Source: a virus. Taken from it: a DNA stretch of 23,309 bases. Numbering within the stretch: the first letter of the stretch is position 1; each line of letters begins with the position of its first letter. Under the pieces are notes generated by a model. The model made no database searches. It saw only the letters and a list, made by a program, of their open reading frames with translations, and was not told the origin of the DNA. The position numbers were made by a program, and so were the translations under genes. Below, piece by piece: positions 1-22,130 of this stretch. The stretch is taken from IMG/VR virus record IMGVR_UViG_3300049491_000348, positions 1 to 23,309 of that record; one strand, 5' to 3'.

Positions 1-32
1 CTCTCTCTCCTGACCCTGGGTCGAGAGTCGTT

Positions 33-1517
33 GTGCCGCAAGGCATTTCGGCATTCTTGAATTGCGAATGGCTAATTGATTTAATTAACACCATTCCCGA
101 TAATGCAATATGGCCGCGCTATATGTCCGCTCCGCACCCATTAGCGGTGGGCTCCTATGGTCAGGAATTGGAAACAATGGCGGAGAATAGGCGCGATAAG
201 CCATTAAGGTGGTGGCAAAGGCTGGCAGCCAGGCGAATATTGGAGCATGATATTAATGGTGCCCTGTGCTGGCGTGAATGGATGCTGACATTATCCAGGC
301 AGGGTGGCAAGTCCTGGCTAATGGCGGAATTGGCTATGTGGAGAATATCGCGCCCTGAATTGTTTGATGATGGCCCCCAGCTGGTCATGCATTTAGCCGA
401 TAAACTCCAGACCGGTGATGAGGTGCAGGGGCCAGCCCGCGCCTGGGCTAAGGCGCATAAGGACAATGGCTGGCGCGCCAATGAGAGTGCTGGCCAGAAA
501 ACAGTTTTCGCCCCCGATGCTGGGCGCTGGCGCGTGTTCAGCAAGTCCACCCCCTATGGCTTCAGTGCTGGCCTGGCCCTGGTGGATGAAGTCTGGGACA
601 TCCTGGCTGCCCTCATTGAGGATGGGGTGGAGCCCACCCAGATGGAGCGCCAGCAGCCTCAGCTGGGCCTGCTGTCCAGCGCGCACCCCAGGGCCACCAG
701 CCTGTTTATCGACAGGCGCGCAACAGCTTTAGCTGGTGGGTCCATCCTGATCATGGAATGGTCCACCCCTACCTACCTGGAGCTGGACGACAGACACGGC
801 TGGCGCATGGCCTCTCCGCACTGGAGCGCCCAGCGTGAGGCTGTCATTGAGCGCGCCTATCACCGCGCCCTGGCCAGGCGCTCCAGCCAGCTGAGCGAAC
901 AGGACCCGGTGGCCACGTTCAAAGGCCAGTACCTGAACCAATGGCCAACGAAGGCCACCAATGAGATAGCGCTACCGGGCGAGCGCCTGTTTGCCCCTGA
1001 GGCCTGGTCCCAGCTGGCTGGGGATGTGGACCCGGTGGGGCCTGTCGTTTTCGCTGTGGAGGACTTTGCAGGGGTCGCCGTGTCCGTGGCTGTGGCTGGT
1101 CGGCTGGGGGATGTGATCACCCTGGAGGCCTACGAACACAAAGGGGATAGGCGCGCCGTCTATGCCTGGATCAGCACCCAGGCAGCTGAGCACCCTGGCA
1201 GCTCTCTGCTGGTGGGGTCCAGCCTCGCTGCTGATGCCCCTGTGCTGGAGCTGGGCGCCGCTATGGCTGTGGTGCCCATGAACTACCAGGACACGCGGGC
1301 TGCGCTGTCCCTGCTGCGCCAGGTGGTCAACAGGCGCGCCCTGGTGCATGCGCCATCAGCTGACCTGGATGCACAGGTGGAGGCCTGCAGAGTCCAGGAT
1401 GGCGCCAGCGGGCTGCGCGTGGCCTCTACGGCTGCGCGGTGGGATGTCATCAGGGCTGCAGCCTGGGCTGTGGGCGCCGTGGAGCGAGAGAGGAGGTACG
1501 CACCCAGCGTGTATTGA
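33..1517 (+). CDS. terL: Terminase large subunit (ATPase/nuclease)
   Basis: Motor protein that packages phage DNA into the prohead and cuts it. From the GTG start the protein is 494 aa. A Walker A-like SRQGGKS lies at residues 88-94, Walker B LALVDE at 181-186, and a coupling-motif-like LLSSAH near 213-218. The C-terminal RNase H-like nuclease shows VVFAVED (D344) and a last acidic residue in RWDVIRAAAWA (D471). A weak GAGAG lies 5-6 bases before the GTG, but the frame stays open to the window edge, so the true start may be upstream. No small terminase is visible. The first 350 bases are AT-richer than the rest of the gene. The stop codon lies inside a perfect inverted repeat. Confidence 0.93.
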   Translation: MPQGISAFLNCEWLIDLINTIPDNAIWPRYMSAPHPLAVGSYGQELETMAENRRDKPLRWWQRLAARRILEHDINGALCWREWMLTLSRQGGKSWLMAELAMWRISRPELFDDGPQLVMHLADKLQTGDEVQGPARAWAKAHKDNGWRANESAGQKTVFAPDAGRWRVFSKSTPYGFSAGLALVDEVWDILAALIEDGVEPTQMERQQPQLGLLSSAHPRATSLFIDRRATALAGGSILIMEWSTPTYLELDDRHGWRMASPHWSAQREAVIERAYHRALARRSSQLSEQDPVATFKGQYLNQWPTKATNEIALPGERLFAPEAWSQLAGDVDPVGPVVFAVEDFAGVAVSVAVAGRLGDVITLEAYEHKGDRRAVYAWISTQAAEHPGSSLLVGSSLAADAPVLELGAAMAVVPMNYQDTRAALSLLRQVVNRRALVHAPSADLDAQVEACRVQDGASGLRVASTAARWDVIRAAAWAVGAVERERRYAPSVY

Positions 1518-15061: not shown

Positions 15062-15069
15062 ATGGACAC
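15058..15069 (+). promoter_or_regulatory. GTGTATGGACAC operator on the integrase start codon
   Basis: Exact copy of the 12-mer at 22154-22165 and of the complement at 1549-1560. The integrase ATG is at its fifth base. A repressor bound here would block initiation of integrase expression. TAGGCT at 15050-15055, six bases before the ATG, could be a -10 for a leaderless mRNA. Confidence 0.6.
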
Positions 15070-16459
15070 ACACACACAGCCAGTCGCAGTCATCTACGTT
15101 CGCCAGTCCGAAGACAGGGACCTGGATGAAAACGCAGTACGTAGGCAGCTAGAGGCTGCCCAGACGCTTTGCGCCAGTAGGGGTATCACTGTCGCTCACA
15201 CCATCATTGAGAATGACACCAGCGCCACTGCAGACAGGCCCAGGCCTGACTATCAGCGCCTAGTGGCCATGATCAGAGGGCGCCAGGTGGACTACATCAT
15301 CACCCCTACTGCTGAGCGCCTGATGCGCAAGCTGGTGGACCTAGAGGAGATGATTGACTTAGTGGAGGCGCACAGCGTCACCATCATTGCGCTGGCTGGA
15401 CAGCTGGACCTGAGCACCCCCAATGGGCGCCTCCTGGCGCGCATCCTGGTCAGCGTTGCGCGTAATGAGATAGAGGTGAAGGTGGCGCGCCAGCGCAGCA
15501 AAAACGCACAGCTGGTGGCTGATGGCCTGCCCACTAAGGGAGGCCCCAGGACCCCTGGCTATGAGGCAGGCCTAATGACGATTAGGGAGGCTGAGGCGCA
15601 GCACATTCGCTGGGGCTTCTCAGCCATCGTTAATGGCCAGCCCCTGCGCACAGTCTGGCGTGAGTGGAATGAGAAGGGCTTTACTAACCGCAGTGGCAAT
15701 AAGTGGACAGTGGCCAACGTGCGCAAGCTGCTAATGAATCCTCGCTACGCAGCCCTAAGCGTCATCCATTCCACTAGCGGTAATCGCTCAGGGATGGTGC
15801 CTGGCCAGTGGCCAGCCATCGTCACCCCTGATGTCTGGCATGCCACCCAGGCCATTCTGAATGACCCAGCGCGCAGGATGACACCCAAAGGCAAGGGTGG
15901 CACCAGGCTGTATCTGCTATCAGGCCTTGCGCGCTGTTTTTGCGGCGCCCTGGTGATGGCTGGCAGGAATAACCACAACGCGCGCAGCTATCGCTGCTCA
16001 GAGCGCCCAGGGCACATGGCCAGGGTCGCTGAGCCCATTGATGCCTACGTACTGGCCACGGTGGCACAGCGACTGCGTGAGAAGGATGCCGGGGGCGCCA
16101 TCACTCCAGCTGGTCAGGCTGTGGACCACGGGGCGCTCAGGGATGAGCGCGCTGCCCTGCGTGTCAGGCTGGATGAGCTGGTGGACCTGCGCGCCGATGG
16201 GGACATCAGCAAGGAACAGCTACAGCGTGGCACTGCGCGCATCACAGTGCGCCTGGAGGCCATCAGGGTGGAGCTGGAGCGAGATGCCCTACTGGCGCCC
16301 CTGCTGGGCCAGGTGGACCCTGGGAAGGCTTTTCTGGAGCTGACCGACCTGGACCAGCGCAGGGCTGTTATCGCGCGACTGGCGCCCAGCATTATCCTGC
16401 GCAGCCCAGGCAGGGGGGCGCGTAAGTTTGACCCAGCCTCAGTGGAGGTATTGCGCTAG
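15062..16459 (+). CDS. int: Large serine integrase
   Basis: 465 aa site-specific recombinase that would integrate the phage at attB. The N-terminal resolvase domain has VIYVRQSEDRD with the catalytic serine at S16, DYIITPTAERLMRKLVDLEE and an NGRLLARILVSVARNEIEVK helix. The recombinase domain follows (RTPGYEAG, WNEKGFTNRSGNKWTVANVR, LMNPRYAALSV), then a zinc ribbon with CFCG (C292, C294) and SYRCSERPGH, a coiled coil and a C-terminal helical end. This is at the short end of the usual range for large serine integrases. No excision factor is recognised next to it. Confidence 0.93.
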   Translation: MDTHTQPVAVIYVRQSEDRDLDENAVRRQLEAAQTLCASRGITVAHTIIENDTSATADRPRPDYQRLVAMIRGRQVDYIITPTAERLMRKLVDLEEMIDLVEAHSVTIIALAGQLDLSTPNGRLLARILVSVARNEIEVKVARQRSKNAQLVADGLPTKGGPRTPGYEAGLMTIREAEAQHIRWGFSAIVNGQPLRTVWREWNEKGFTNRSGNKWTVANVRKLLMNPRYAALSVIHSTSGNRSGMVPGQWPAIVTPDVWHATQAILNDPARRMTPKGKGGTRLYLLSGLARCFCGALVMAGRNNHNARSYRCSERPGHMARVAEPIDAYVLATVAQRLREKDAGGAITPAGQAVDHGALRDERAALRVRLDELVDLRADGDISKEQLQRGTARITVRLEAIRVELERDALLAPLLGQVDPGKAFLELTDLDQRRAVIARLAPSIILRSPGRGARKFDPASVEVLR

Positions 16460-16472
16460 GCCCAGATAAACC

Positions 16473-16507
16473 AAAGGGGCGCCCCCAATACGGGGCGCCC
16501 CTTTTTT
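16473..16507. terminator. Bidirectional terminator between integrase and repressor
   Basis: AAAGGGGCGCCCC (16473-16485) pairs with GGGGCGCCCCTTT (16492-16504) across a 6-base loop, followed by TTTTTT ending at 16507 on the + strand. The A-run on the left gives a short U tract for leftward transcripts. It separates the convergent integrase and repressor genes and is the strongest terminator in the window. Confidence 0.92.
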
Positions 16508-16520
16508 GTTGCCTGTGACA

Positions 16521-16892: not shown

Positions 16893-16946
16893 TGTCTGCC
16901 TCCTGTGGTAGTGCGTCCCCTCATGACGCTTAAAGCCTCATAGTGC

Positions 16947-16966
16947 CAGGAACGGACAGGAACGGC
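16947..16966. repeat. Tandem 10-bp repeat in the divergent operator region
   Basis: CAGGAACGGA followed directly by CAGGAACGGC. The one-helical-turn spacing suggests two contacts on one DNA face, for the repressor, the Cro-like protein or an unknown factor. It is about 55 bp upstream of the repressor start. Confidence 0.6.
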
Positions 16967-16968
16967 AC

Positions 16969-16981
16969 CCAGGTAACCTGG
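16969..16981. promoter_or_regulatory. Putative operator 1 (CCAGGTAACCTGG)
   Basis: Thirteen-base dyad centred on GGTAACC, between the divergent repressor and Cro-like genes. It shares the GGTWACC core with sites at 2891, 15017 and 17060. Confidence 0.6.
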
Positions 16982-16991
16982 CGTGTCTCAC

Positions 16992-17003
16992 CTGGGGTTA
17001 CAG
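16992..17003. promoter_or_regulatory. Putative operator 2 (CTGGGGTTACAG)
   Basis: Partial match to the same motif with outer CTG/CAG symmetry. A further half-match on the opposite strand (CAGGGGTAAT) lies just downstream at about 17005-17014. Confidence 0.5.
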
Positions 17004-17056
17004 AATTACCCCTGTGTATCTCCGTTCGGTGCCTATGCGTTGCTGTGAGTTCACCC

Positions 17057-17068
17057 TAGGGTTACCGC
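17057..17068. promoter_or_regulatory. Putative operator 3 / -10 at the Cro-like start
   Basis: TAGGGTTACCGC abuts the ATG at 17069. TAGGGT could be a -10 with transcription starting at the ATG, and GGGTTACC (17059-17066) is the operator core. An AGGG could alternatively serve as a ribosome site. Binding here would shut the early rightward operon. Confidence 0.55.
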
Positions 17069-18382: not shown

Positions 18383-18588
18383 CAGCGATACAGGCCAGGG
18401 AGCAGGAATATGCCAGCGCGCGCCATCACCTGGCCACGCGCCTGGAGCGCCTGGCATCGGTGGCCCAGGTGCTGGCTGACGAGATGCGCGATGGTGGCAC
18501 GCTCACTGTTGCTGACATGAACAGGCTGGAGAAGCGCGTGCAAAGTGTCTATGAGGCAACAGCTTTGGCCAGGGCAACCAGGCCATGA
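18379..18588 (+). CDS. 69-aa helical small protein
   Basis: ATGA overlaps at both ends tie it to its neighbours. Predicted as two long helices: QEYASARHHLATRLERLASV continuing to DEMRDG, and VADMNRLEKRVQSVYEATAL. No cysteine, signal or catalytic motif. Family unknown; its fixed place before the ParB-like gene suggests a partner or regulator. Confidence 0.6.
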   Translation: MTAIQAREQEYASARHHLATRLERLASVAQVLADEMRDGGTLTVADMNRLEKRVQSVYEATALARATRP

Positions 18589-19421
18589 AGATCAGCCAGA
18601 TACTCCTGACACCTGAGCTGGCCAGCAAACTGCTAGGCACCAGCCCTGCGACTCAGCGCCCACTAACCCAGGCGAAAACACGCAAGATAGCTGAGGCCAT
18701 CCTGCGTGATGAATGGCGCCTGACTCATCAGCCGATAGCCCTAGATGAAAAGGGCAACCTGATAGATGGGCAAACACGCTGCGCTGCCTGTGTTCTCGCC
18801 AATCGTCCCATCCTGGTCATGCTGGCTGAAGGTGTTGACGCTGCCAGCTTCGCTGTCATGGATATCGGCGCCAGGCGCACCCCTGGGGACATCCTGCACA
18901 TATCTGGCGTGACCGATGCGCGCACCACTGCGGCGACTGCGCGCCTGTATGTGGGCTACAGGGATGGCCTCTTGGGTGACGCGCCCTGGCGCGCAGGTGG
19001 TGGGAACGTTGGGCGCCTCAGCACCATCACACCCATCAGGCTGCTGCGCGCACTGGAGGAGTCCCCCCTACTGACTGACAGCACTATTAGGGCTGAGTCC
19101 GCAGCCGTGGCCTCAGGTGTCGGACGCAGGGGGCTGCGCAGCCCAGTCCAGGCTGCCCTCATTGTCATCACTGAGGATGCCAAACCTACGGCGCAGCAAT
19201 ATGACTCATTCATCAGCGCCCTGACTAAGGGGGCAGACCTAGCGCCATCATCTCCAGTGCTGACCTGGCGCCAGTGGGCAGTAAGGCCCATCACGCGCCA
19301 CCCAGTGGAGGTGCTGGCCACGCTGTTGAAGGTCTGGACCATCTACCAGCGAGGGGGGCGCCTAACCCAGCTCAGGGCCTTTGCTGAAGGGGACTCAGTA
19401 CCCAGTGTTACGGCGCACTGA
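18585..19421 (+). CDS. ParB/sulfiredoxin-fold (DGQxR) protein
   Basis: 278 aa. Residues 40-70 carry the signature EWRLTHQPIALDEKGNLIDG followed by QTRCAACV, i.e. the DGQ(H/T)R loop of the ParB/Srx-like nuclease or nucleotide-binding fold. Then comes FAVMDIGARRTPGDIL, seen in the same phage family. Members occur in early regions of actinophages and are variously called ParB-like nuclease or transcription regulator; the activity has not been settled to my knowledge. The canonical DGQHR has Thr in place of His here. Confidence 0.78.
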   Translation: MKISQILLTPELASKLLGTSPATQRPLTQAKTRKIAEAILRDEWRLTHQPIALDEKGNLIDGQTRCAACVLANRPILVMLAEGVDAASFAVMDIGARRTPGDILHISGVTDARTTAATARLYVGYRDGLLGDAPWRAGGGNVGRLSTITPIRLLRALEESPLLTDSTIRAESAAVASGVGRRGLRSPVQAALIVITEDAKPTAQQYDSFISALTKGADLAPSSPVLTWRQWAVRPITRHPVEVLATLLKVWTIYQRGGRLTQLRAFAEGDSVPSVTAH

Positions 19422-20034
19422 CCTGCGCACCCTGTGCATCATCCAGGGCTGTTTAACACCCAGGGTGGGGGCCAATATGTGCGCCCCTCACCAGACCCAT
19501 ACGACTCGATTGGGGTACGTGCGTGCCATGGAGAATGACGACACCACAGCGAATGAGATAGATGAGCTGGCAAGGCGTCTGCTGTTGCTGGCCTCACTGA
19601 AGGGGCGCGTAGAGGGCGCCATTGCTGACACCAGGACCAGCCTGCGCAAGCTGACCAGGCCTGGCACCAGCGTTAAACCGCGCCTGGCCGATGGTGGGCC
19701 AGCTGGAGTGGTCAGCTACACAGTGGCTGGCATTAAGGCCCAGGTGGCTGATGAGGAGGCCTTCACTGCCTGGGTACTGAAGCGCTACCCCACTGAGGCC
19801 ACCATGGCTGTCAGTGTGCGAGAAGCCTTTAGGGCCAGGGTCCTGGAGGTTAGCGAGGCTGCTGGGGTGGCCCTGGGGCCAGGTGGAGAGGCTGCAGAGG
19901 ATGCGCCCCCCGTGCGAATGGTCAACACAGCTGGCACTGTGCGCGCCCTGCCAGACAAGAACAGGACCAGTGAGCTGTGGGCTGAGATTAGGGCTGGGGC
20001 AACACTTTTCGAACTAGAGGAGCAGGGGCAATGA
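19405..20034 (+). CDS. Zinc-knuckle plus coiled-coil protein upstream of RecT
   Basis: 209 aa if started at GTG 19405; other in-frame starts are ATG 19477, GTG 19519 and ATG 19528. The N-terminus carries C-x4-C-x9-C-x2-H (LCIIQGCLTPRVGANMCAPH), the pattern of small zinc-knuckle proteins. The rest is a helical region (IDELARRLLLLASLKGRVEG), then AGVVSYTVAGIKAQVADEEA, ending TSELWAEIRAGATLFE. Its position before RecT suggests a Gam-like nuclease inhibitor or recombination accessory, but no family is recognised. Because the knuckle is in frame with no stop, I include it; a shorter protein from 19528 is equally possible. Confidence 0.7.
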   Translation: MLRRTDLRTLCIIQGCLTPRVGANMCAPHQTHTTRLGYVRAMENDDTTANEIDELARRLLLLASLKGRVEGAIADTRTSLRKLTRPGTSVKPRLADGGPAGVVSYTVAGIKAQVADEEAFTAWVLKRYPTEATMAVSVREAFRARVLEVSEAAGVALGPGGEAAEDAPPVRMVNTAGTVRALPDKNRTSELWAEIRAGATLFELEEQGQ

Positions 20035-20930
20035 CATCATCAGAACTAGAGCGCAGGCCACAGTCTGACCTGCAGGCCCAATGGGGCTACGCCAAAGCCC
20101 TTGCCACAGCAGGCACGTTGCCTAAGGCCTACCGGGAGAAGCCAGGGGATGTGCTGCTGGCCATGGCCTATGGGGAGGCCCTGCGCCTGCATGTCACCAA
20201 CGTCTTTACCAGCGTTCACATCATTGATGGCAAGCCCTCCATGTCCAGTGAGCTGATGCAGGCGCTGATCAGGCGCGAGGGGCACAGGATCAGGACCAAA
20301 GGGGATGCGCAGTCAGCTACCTGCGTCATTGTTCGCAAGGATGACCCTGACTACGCCTACACAGTGACCTGGACCCTGGCCGATGCCAGGCAGGCGAAGC
20401 TGATCCCAGCCAAGCCAGACTCAGGCTGGGCAAAGTACCCAGGCGCCATGCTGCTGGCCAGGGCTGTCAGTGCCTGCGCGCGCCAGGCCTGCGCTGATGT
20501 GCTGGCTGGGGTCAGCTACACACCTGAGGAGCTGAGCACCAATGGCGCCATGGTGGATGCCCTGAGCACCCCTGCGCCTGTGCGCGCTCCTGAAGGCCCC
20601 AGGGCACCAGTGGGTTACCCAGATGCCCTGGATGGCACCACAGAGGCCCCTGAGCGCCCCCAGGAGCGACCGGCGCCCCCAGCCGGGGGTGATGACACCA
20701 GGCCCAGGCCCCCGTACCCAGAGTCAGTCAGCATGGCCGATGAACAGGCGCAGCAGTGGCAGCAGGCCTGGCTGGTGGACCTGGACCAGGCACAGGAGGC
20801 CAATGACCTGGAGGCCATCACCCAGCTGGGCAACAAAGCGCTCACCAGTGGCCTGGTGGATGCCCTGCCCATGGCAGCCCAGGCGCGCGAGGCCTGGCTA
20901 GAAGTTCAGGCCAGGCTGGCTGATGCCTAG
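20031..20930 (+). CDS. recT: RecT-like single-strand annealing protein
   Basis: 299 aa, ATGA-coupled to the preceding gene. RecT-family proteins anneal complementary single strands in phage recombination. Conserved stretches are ALATAGTLPKAYREKPGDVL, AMAYGEALRLHVTNVFTSVH, IIDGKPSMSSELMQALIRRE, VIVRKDDPDYAYTVTWTLAD and YPGAMLLARAVSACARQACA, then VLAGVSYTPEEL. The C-terminal third is a proline-rich linker followed by an acidic helical tail, as in SSB-interacting annealers. No partner exonuclease is obvious in the window. One copy of GGGTTACC lies inside the gene (20612-20619). Confidence 0.87.
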   Translation: MTSSELERRPQSDLQAQWGYAKALATAGTLPKAYREKPGDVLLAMAYGEALRLHVTNVFTSVHIIDGKPSMSSELMQALIRREGHRIRTKGDAQSATCVIVRKDDPDYAYTVTWTLADARQAKLIPAKPDSGWAKYPGAMLLARAVSACARQACADVLAGVSYTPEELSTNGAMVDALSTPAPVRAPEGPRAPVGYPDALDGTTEAPERPQERPAPPAGGDDTRPRPPYPESVSMADEQAQQWQQAWLVDLDQAQEANDLEAITQLGNKALTSGLVDALPMAAQAREAWLEVQARLADA

Positions 20931-21141
20931 GGCCAGGTGCTCAGGCTGTCGGCTGTGGATTGACACCACTGCGCCTGGGGTTGCGGAGAAGATCAGCTGT
21001 TACCGGGTGAACCGCAAGAGGGGCGCAGGTGGGGGCACCAACGCTGTCAGCCTGCCAAAGTCGTTGGGGGTCTGGCTGTGCCCTGCCTGCCATGACGTAG
21101 CAAAGGGCAGCCTGGACCTGGCGCAGGGTGAGCTGTTCTGA
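20923..21141 (+). CDS. 72-aa zinc-ribbon protein
   Basis: Starts eight bases inside the RecT gene. Two CxxC pairs, RCSGCRLW near the N-terminus and WLCPACHD near residue 53, plus an intervening basic stretch (YRVNRKRGAGGG), form a standard four-cysteine zinc ribbon. It may bind nucleic acid. Function unknown; it lies between RecT and the putative initiator. Confidence 0.7.
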   Translation: MPRARCSGCRLWIDTTAPGVAEKISCYRVNRKRGAGGGTNAVSLPKSLGVWLCPACHDVAKGSLDLAQGELF

Positions 21142-21146
21142 GCGCC

Positions 21147-21491
21147 ATGGGATATCACAACGTGGCAGCCGTCATGACGTACTGGCCCCAGCTGGGCCAT
21201 GCGCCAGGGCGCCTGCTGGTGCATATGGCGCTGATGTCCCTGGACCCCCCAGGGCGCAACGGCACCCCAGCCTGCCACTACTGGGGGCCTGTGCAGATGC
21301 AGGCGCAGGCCATGGGTATCAGCAACAAAGCCAGCGCCAGGCAGCTGCGCAAGCTGCGCGCAACCCTGGTGGAGGCAGGCGCCCTGGAGCTGGTGAGGCC
21401 AGGGCACAAAGGGCGCCCCCCTGTTTGGCTGGTCATCACTGAGCCCCCCAGGGTGCCAGCCCAGATGCCCTGGCTGGACGGAACTTTGTAG
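21147..21491 (+). CDS. Winged-helix protein, candidate replication initiator
   Basis: 114 aa. The pattern RLLVHMALMSLDPPG followed by YWGPVQMQAQAMGI and SARQLRKLRATLVEAGALEL, ending in a basic wing (VRPGHKGRPPVWLVI), is a winged helix-turn-helix as in small actinophage initiator or regulator proteins. Its TAG stop lies inside the first of three palindromic iterons. If the stop were read through, the frame would continue AIEWPSREATEWPSKCRLVG, and EWP-type repeats occur at the ends of related phage proteins. This makes a lambda-O-like initiator attractive, perhaps recently shortened. No Shine-Dalgarno is evident; coupling is likely. Confidence 0.68.
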   Translation: MGYHNVAAVMTYWPQLGHAPGRLLVHMALMSLDPPGRNGTPACHYWGPVQMQAQAMGISNKASARQLRKLRATLVEAGALELVRPGHKGRPPVWLVITEPPRVPAQMPWLDGTL

Positions 21492-21564
21492 GCCATTGAG
21501 TGGCCTAGTAGGGAGGCCACTGAGTGGCCTAGTAAATGCCGTTTAGTAGGCCACTGAGTGGCCT
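21490..21564. repeat. Three palindromic iterons, putative replication origin
   Basis: AGGCCATTGAGTGGCCT (21490-21506), AGGCCACTGAGTGGCCT (21514-21530) and the same again (21548-21564). Copies 2 and 3 are perfect 17-base odd palindromes; copy 1 has one change. Centres are 24 and 34 bases apart. They begin in the stop codon of the winged-helix gene, as the lambda origin iterons lie inside gene O, and a more AT-rich stretch with TAATAAGGAATA follows. Confidence 0.75.
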
Positions 21565-21665
21565 CCAGATGAGTAATAAGGAATAGGACCAACACATGAG
21601 GAGGGGGCTGGGTTGAGAAAGCTAGTCACCACTCATGATCAAAAACAGCTGAGGAGGCAGTCAAC
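21565..21665. other. AT-richer region downstream of iterons
   Basis: About 100 bases without a gene. It has GAGTAATAAGGAATAGG and TGATCAAAAACAG, lower in GC than its surroundings, as expected of an unwinding element. It also holds the GAGGAGG ribosome site for the next gene. No promoter or RNA gene is clear. Confidence 0.4.
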
Positions 21666-22118: not shown

Positions 22119-22130
22119 GTGTATGGACAG
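22119..22130 (-). promoter_or_regulatory. Operator-like site overlapping the RHH -10
   Basis: GTGTATGGACAG, 11 of 12 bases of the shared motif. TACACT on the minus strand (22123-22118) lies within it, followed by a 6-base gap to the RHH ATG. Occupancy would block transcription of the RHH gene. Confidence 0.6.

Follow-up and report, generated by a model that had tools for sequence, protein, structure and literature searches.

The virus contig analysed here probably carries a replication origin of the lambda O type whose initiator has been cut down to its DNA-binding domain. A gene for a winged-helix protein ends inside the first of three 17-bp palindromes, and the third palindrome is followed by a tract rich in AT and in purines (Table 1). 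The window, i.e. the whole stretch of DNA that was analysed, is the entire IMG/VR record (G000; 23,309 b). The phage is best explained as temperate and actinophage-like, with a genome of about 24 kb. The preliminary description had proposed a lambda-O-like origin, which is supported by the layout, by the tract beside the palindromes and by the set of genes; we infer that the protein binds the palindromes and that replication starts there. The accompanying idea that the palindromes are a fossil of coding DNA had to be abandoned.

Table 1. Features of the proposed origin module and of the adjoining genes in the window
Feature	Position	Strand	Remarks
RecT-family single-strand annealing protein	20031..20930	+	PF03837 1.8e-5, phrog_561 2.3e-38
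Zn/HNH-like small protein	20923..21141	+	between RecT and winged-helix gene; weak HNH match; conserved in G001, G003
Winged-helix protein gene, 114 aa	21147..21491	+	proposed minimal replication initiator; TAG stop 21489-21491; AF2 model
Palindrome (iteron) 1	21490-21506	.	AGGCCATTGAGTGGCCT; overlaps TAG stop of the 21147 gene
Palindrome (iteron) 2	21514-21530	.	AGGCCACTGAGTGGCCT; 24 bp from iteron 1
Palindrome (iteron) 3	21548-21564	.	AGGCCACTGAGTGGCCT; 34 bp from iteron 2
AT-rich, purine-rich tract	21565..21604	+	candidate DNA-unwinding element; directly after iteron 3
Cys/His-rich protein, 82 aa	21666..21914	+	beyond the repeats; may be a partner; 51-56% in both relatives

Palindromes at the end of the winged-helix gene

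The three 17-base palindromes begin within the stop codon of the winged-helix gene, as had been claimed, and lie in a non-coding gap of about 174 nt upstream of a conserved ORF (21666). With up to three mismatches allowed, the window contains these three sites (six strand matches) and none elsewhere, compared with 0.25 matches expected by chance, and six matches were not reached in any of 100 shuffles of the window. The window has 26 near-perfect odd palindromes of 17 bp, and only at 21490-21564 do three of them fall within 100 nt of each other. The shuffles, the low expectation and the unique clustering rule out a chance occurrence.

A scan of IMG/VR with the exact 17-mer revealed one true relative, G001 (24,352 b); the matches in L001, L003 and L004 were single copies in unrelated contigs. 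Reverse-complemented, G001 is collinear with the window and circularly permuted, it links the end of the window to its start, and it appears to be an essentially full genome of about 24.3 kb. A scan with a terminase profile added further relatives, among them G003 (21,633 b). Both ends of G003 overlap with a short contig, L021, at 100% identity; if the two belong to the same phage, the map closes into a circle of about 22.96 kb. Together G001 and G003, both from uncultured phages, cover the whole gene set and carry the same module, a winged-helix gene and then three palindromes, so that neither homologue ends at a stop without repeats downstream.

In G001 the palindromes have the sequence of those in the window and do not occur elsewhere. 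In every copy of G003 (AGGTACCTGAGGTACCT, CGGTACCTGAGGTACCT, GGGTACCTGAGGTACCT), positions 4-6 and 12-14 depart from AGGCCACTGAGTGGCCT of the window, yet the arms stay complementary; the outer GG/CC and the TGA in the centre are kept. The spacings are 24/34 bp in the window, 23/34 in G001 and 23/23 in G003; the distances of 34 and 23 between the second and third palindromes thus differ by 11 bp, one helical turn. Symmetry that is conserved without conservation of sequence, together with the 11-bp difference, speaks for sites on DNA that a protein binds as a dimer. The small number of cases, three genomes with a single change of spacing and a single change of sites, counts against an origin.

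The central TGA of palindrome 1 serves as the stop codon of the gene in both relatives; in the window, a 1-nt indel creates a TAG just ahead of this TGA. The overlap of the gene end with the first palindrome is conserved in all three genomes, and termination at the TGA within the palindrome is probably ancestral because G003 is the more distant member. Translation past the TAG of the window gives AIEWPSREATEWPSKCRLVGH before the next stop, which agrees with the in-frame EWP units described earlier. From these units it had been suggested that the repeats once belonged to the coding region. Read-through of copy 1 in G001 yields LGH and a stop, and in G003 GT, a stop and GTYFAVPEVPP; the frame is one base off and EWP repeats are present in neither homologue. 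A coding fossil was rejected since neither frame nor sequence is kept, and the EWP reading of the window is an accident of the 1-nt indel.

The winged-helix protein, the flanking tract and the gene content

The homologues of the 21147 protein are 71% (G001) and 57% (G003) identical to it, and the proteins comprise 114-117 aa. An AF2 model based on the three-sequence alignment (pLDDT 67) has the element order H-H-E-H-H-E-E, which is that of a winged helix; the assignment is made with modest confidence. Profile searches of the protein against Pfam and PHROG matched no family, and the PHROG phage replication-initiation families matched none of the three homologues. The lack of a sequence match to any initiator family counts against an origin. 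A search of phages and plasmids for winged-helix proteins of this type gave nothing credible, and the sole match in genome_contigs, a Marinobacter locus, seems to encode a lipase-like protein that matched by chance. A PDB search with the model placed N-terminal domains of staphylococcal RepA at ranks 1, 4, 9, 10 and 15, the best fold matches, with weak E values of 0.02-0.4. The entries 4pql, 4pt7 and 5kbj we take to be RepA proteins of staphylococcal plasmids. The RepA_N domain has no Pfam match in the 21147 protein. In BFVD, an actinophage HTH protein was matched with E 7e-5, the lambda-type O protein of phage Min27 ranked 9th (E 2e-3, TM 0.64) without a sequence match, and a replication initiator ranked 30th. 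In the region of the predicted recognition helix the window has NKASAR, G001 NKANAR and G003 LNRTSAR with one inserted residue. The putative helix is thus nearly identical where the sites are the same and different where the sites differ, which is suggestive only.

The 40 nt that follow palindrome 3 stand, among all 40-nt windows of the respective record, at the AT/purine percentiles 98.8/99.7 in the window, 98.9/99.7 in G001 and 99.9/97.8 in G003. Iterons adjoined by such a tract in three genomes match the layout of lambdoid origins (PMC7466680). GC skew was uninformative as a marker; its detrended minima lie at about 19.5 kb in the window and 14.6 kb in the rotated G001, not at the repeats. 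DnaA boxes were not found near the repeats, which counts against an origin.

Pfam and PHROG scans covered the G001 stretch that fills the gap of the window and most window genes, all but a number of small ORFs that lie chiefly among the structural genes. They identified terminase, portal, protease, capsid and tail proteins, a lysin, a serine integrase, repressors, RusA, RecT, HNH and a ParB-like protein. Among the genes scanned there was no helicase, loader, primase, polymerase or SSB, which upholds the earlier statement on primase, helicase and polymerase and extends it to loader and SSB. The 21666 protein and its G001 homologue matched no family.

Most structural genes are 60-80% identical among the relatives. 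The integrase (15062-16459) has the opposite orientation in G003, where its identity is only 42%; in G001 the identity is 27%. The ParB-like gene (18585-19421) is absent from both relatives, its slot in G001 being occupied by a zinc-rich HNH-like ORF; these differences reflect modular exchange. An HNH motif and the large terminase share one ORF of 624-693 aa in four related genomes (L010:7429-9510, L021:1511-3538, L024:5185-7200 and L025:7039-8913), which suggests a fused HNH-terminase; the ORF of the window (3-1517) is open at its 5' end. The sequence TGTATGGACA occurs at 22120, 22155, 15059 and 1550, and with one mismatch at 1510, places that correspond to the promoter of a ribbon-helix-helix gene, the integrase start and the region after the terminase. 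Six sites were found with one mismatch allowed versus about one expected, and similar sites precede the ribbon-helix-helix gene in G001, possibly the regulon of an Arc-like repressor. Between the divergent repressor and Cro-like genes (16893-17068) there are CCTRGGGTTAC repeats (16991, 17055), likely lysogeny operators, and between the convergent integrase and repressor genes a strong GC hairpin followed by a T-run (16480-16510), likely a terminator.

In the mechanism that we propose, the winged-helix protein would bind as a dimer to each of the three iterons, which begin where its own gene ends. Lying on related faces of the helix, the complexes so formed would jointly strain the tract 21565-21604 until it opens, and the host replication machinery would then be recruited. 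Recruitment from the host is proposed because the phage appears to encode no replication machinery.

Comparison with known initiators

In phage lambda, dimeric O protein with an N-terminal DNA-binding domain acts at iterons which, with an AT-rich tract, are joined to the initiator gene (PMC7466680). The window resembles ori-lambda in that several similar iterons adjoin an AT-rich tract and are joined to the gene of the presumed initiator. It differs in having three iterons instead of four and in the position of the gene end, since ori-lambda lies wholly inside the O gene whereas the genes of the window, G001 and G003 terminate inside iteron 1. Lambda O furthermore has a C-terminal domain that binds the loader, P; neither domain nor loader was found among the genes scanned in the window. 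RepA of pSK41 (319 aa) contains a winged-helix domain of about 120 aa, which binds boxes located directly downstream within rep, and a separate C-terminal domain that binds DnaG (PMC5703833). The size of the winged helix and the boxes directly after its coding DNA are shared by the RepA_N proteins (pSK41 RepA; PDB 4pt7, 4pql, 5kbj) and the window, but the window protein lacks a C-terminal domain of the lambda O or pSK41 RepA type, which counts against an origin, the pSK41 boxes are inside rep, and no sequence similarity was found. The best explanation is that the module works like the lambda O and RepA_N origins and yet is a member of neither; it is assigned to neither because a C-terminal domain, a loader and an intragenic placement of the sites were looked for and not found.

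L024 and L025 in IMG/VR are sister phages of the same terminase family. Their slot after RecT is occupied by a 'replication initiation protein' of 111 aa that consists of the winged helix only and matches only positions 1-112 of the 302 positions of phrog_1408 (E about 1e-26). Like the window, they have a palindromic sequence and a purine-rich tract before the terminase. Unlike the window, at least one other gene separates initiator and repeats, and the winged-helix sequence is unrelated; homology to the window protein was rejected by profile comparison (hhalign probability 0.2%). The palindromic sequence, TGAGC/GCTCA, is followed by a long purine tract of the GGGGAA type (L025:6395-6500, L024:4660-4780) between initiator and terminase and is a possible origin.

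Recognised actinophage initiators and close relatives were surveyed, including ten full-length forms of 264-332 aa, some of them from phages related to each other. When the local repeat clusters of each locus are ranked, the strongest is intragenic at codons 113-145 in seven of the ten, and in nine a cluster at these codons is among the top two, some clusters of the surveyed initiators being low-complexity tracts. Examples are the 17-bp palindromes of the GGGCCGGAATCCGGCCC type in ToastyFinz gp38 and the tandem GGAACAGG tracts in several others. Repeats within coding DNA, as had been imagined for the EWP units, therefore do exist in related systems. In the forms reduced to the winged helix, Anatole gp45 (121 aa) and Rabbs gp48 (123 aa), the top cluster comes just after the stop. 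In Propionibacterium phage Anatole the repeats TGAGCAAGCAAACGGGTAAGC (L017:6499-6600) overlap the end of gp45, with the TAA stop inside the first repeat. Anatole gp46 does not match the C-termini of the full-length initiators, which rejects it as a separate gene for the lost C-terminal domain. Palindromes after the winged helix of known initiators are a mixed feature, strong in ToastyFinz, Phalm and PFR2 and absent in several; hence the rule that repeats follow the winged helix holds for direct repeats and not for palindromes. The window module has the geometry of the actinophage initiator class: a winged helix, repeats, and a gene end where the repeats begin. It shares the winged helix of about 110 aa and the repeat cluster directly after it with the families phrog_3926, 2447, 2149, 1408 and 6643, and the gene end at the repeats with the short forms; it differs from these families in that there is no detectable sequence homology and that most members examined have 264-332 aa and intragenic repeats.

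Alternative functions of the palindromes and implications

The main rival of an origin is an operator array, a transcription switch through which the winged-helix protein or another phage regulator controls the genes from 21666 onward and perhaps the late operon. We consider it unlikely, even though palindromes for a dimeric winged-helix protein fit an operator equally well, the gap ahead of a conserved ORF is a suitable place, and several fold matches of the protein belong to the MarR and CRP types of transcription regulator. Arguing against an operator is the location of the palindromes downstream and not upstream of the winged-helix gene, as is the result of a promoter scan for sigma-70 types, which gave no match on the plus strand near the sites. 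Operators of the known phage regulators were rejected because those regulators have candidate sites elsewhere in the genome, namely the CCTRGGGTTAC repeats between cI and Cro and the GTGTATGGACA repeats at the promoter of the ribbon-helix-helix gene. Neither relative encodes the ParB-like protein. An origin is favoured over an operator by the AT- and purine-rich tract and by the initiator that L024 and L025 have in the syntenic position.

It is much less probable that the palindromes act in mRNA as hairpins, be it as a terminator, an attenuator or a stabiliser of the 3' end. Either strand is predicted to fold strongly (z about -6), and the change of C7 to T7 in some copies retains a G-U pair in the sense RNA. 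Outer pairs are nevertheless broken in some copies (C1-T17 in copy 2 of G001 and G003), and hairpins, though they would account for the symmetry, need no spacing rule, whereas the 11-bp change fits a turn of the DNA helix. A terminator was rejected on the terminator scan, which does not report the palindromes; they are not followed by a T-run, unlike the stem that the phage does have at about 16480-16510. A parS-like partition or pac-like packaging array is scarcely to be expected: parS direct repeats can lie directly downstream of repA in mycobacteriophages (PMC7157519) and the window contains a ParB-like gene at 18585, but ParA was not found, the serine integrase makes prophage partition unexpected, the palindromes are about 2 kb from the terminase, and their persistence in G001 and G003, where the ParB-like gene is missing, led to the rejection of ParB/parS.

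The survey of actinophage initiators suggests a possible general rule, namely that the strongest repeats immediately follow the winged helix, both where the gene runs on through them and where it ends. More tentatively, the three phages may represent a small temperate lineage in which a lone winged-helix initiator of about 114 aa, with its stop in the first iteron, opens the origin and calls in the host without a C-terminal domain; possibly the Cys/His-rich 21666 protein is the split-off recruiting half. If the origin is real, one gene of 114 aa and about 120 bp would make up a phage replication module of very small size, the scans having revealed no further replication gene in the phage. The minimum required for recruitment of the host replisome, a task that falls to a separate C-terminal domain in lambda O and RepA, would become testable, and the two natural versions of the site (AGGCCAC...GTGGCCT and AGGTACC...GGTACCT) permit a clean swap of specificity. 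The module might then also serve as a compact replicon for actinobacterial vectors.
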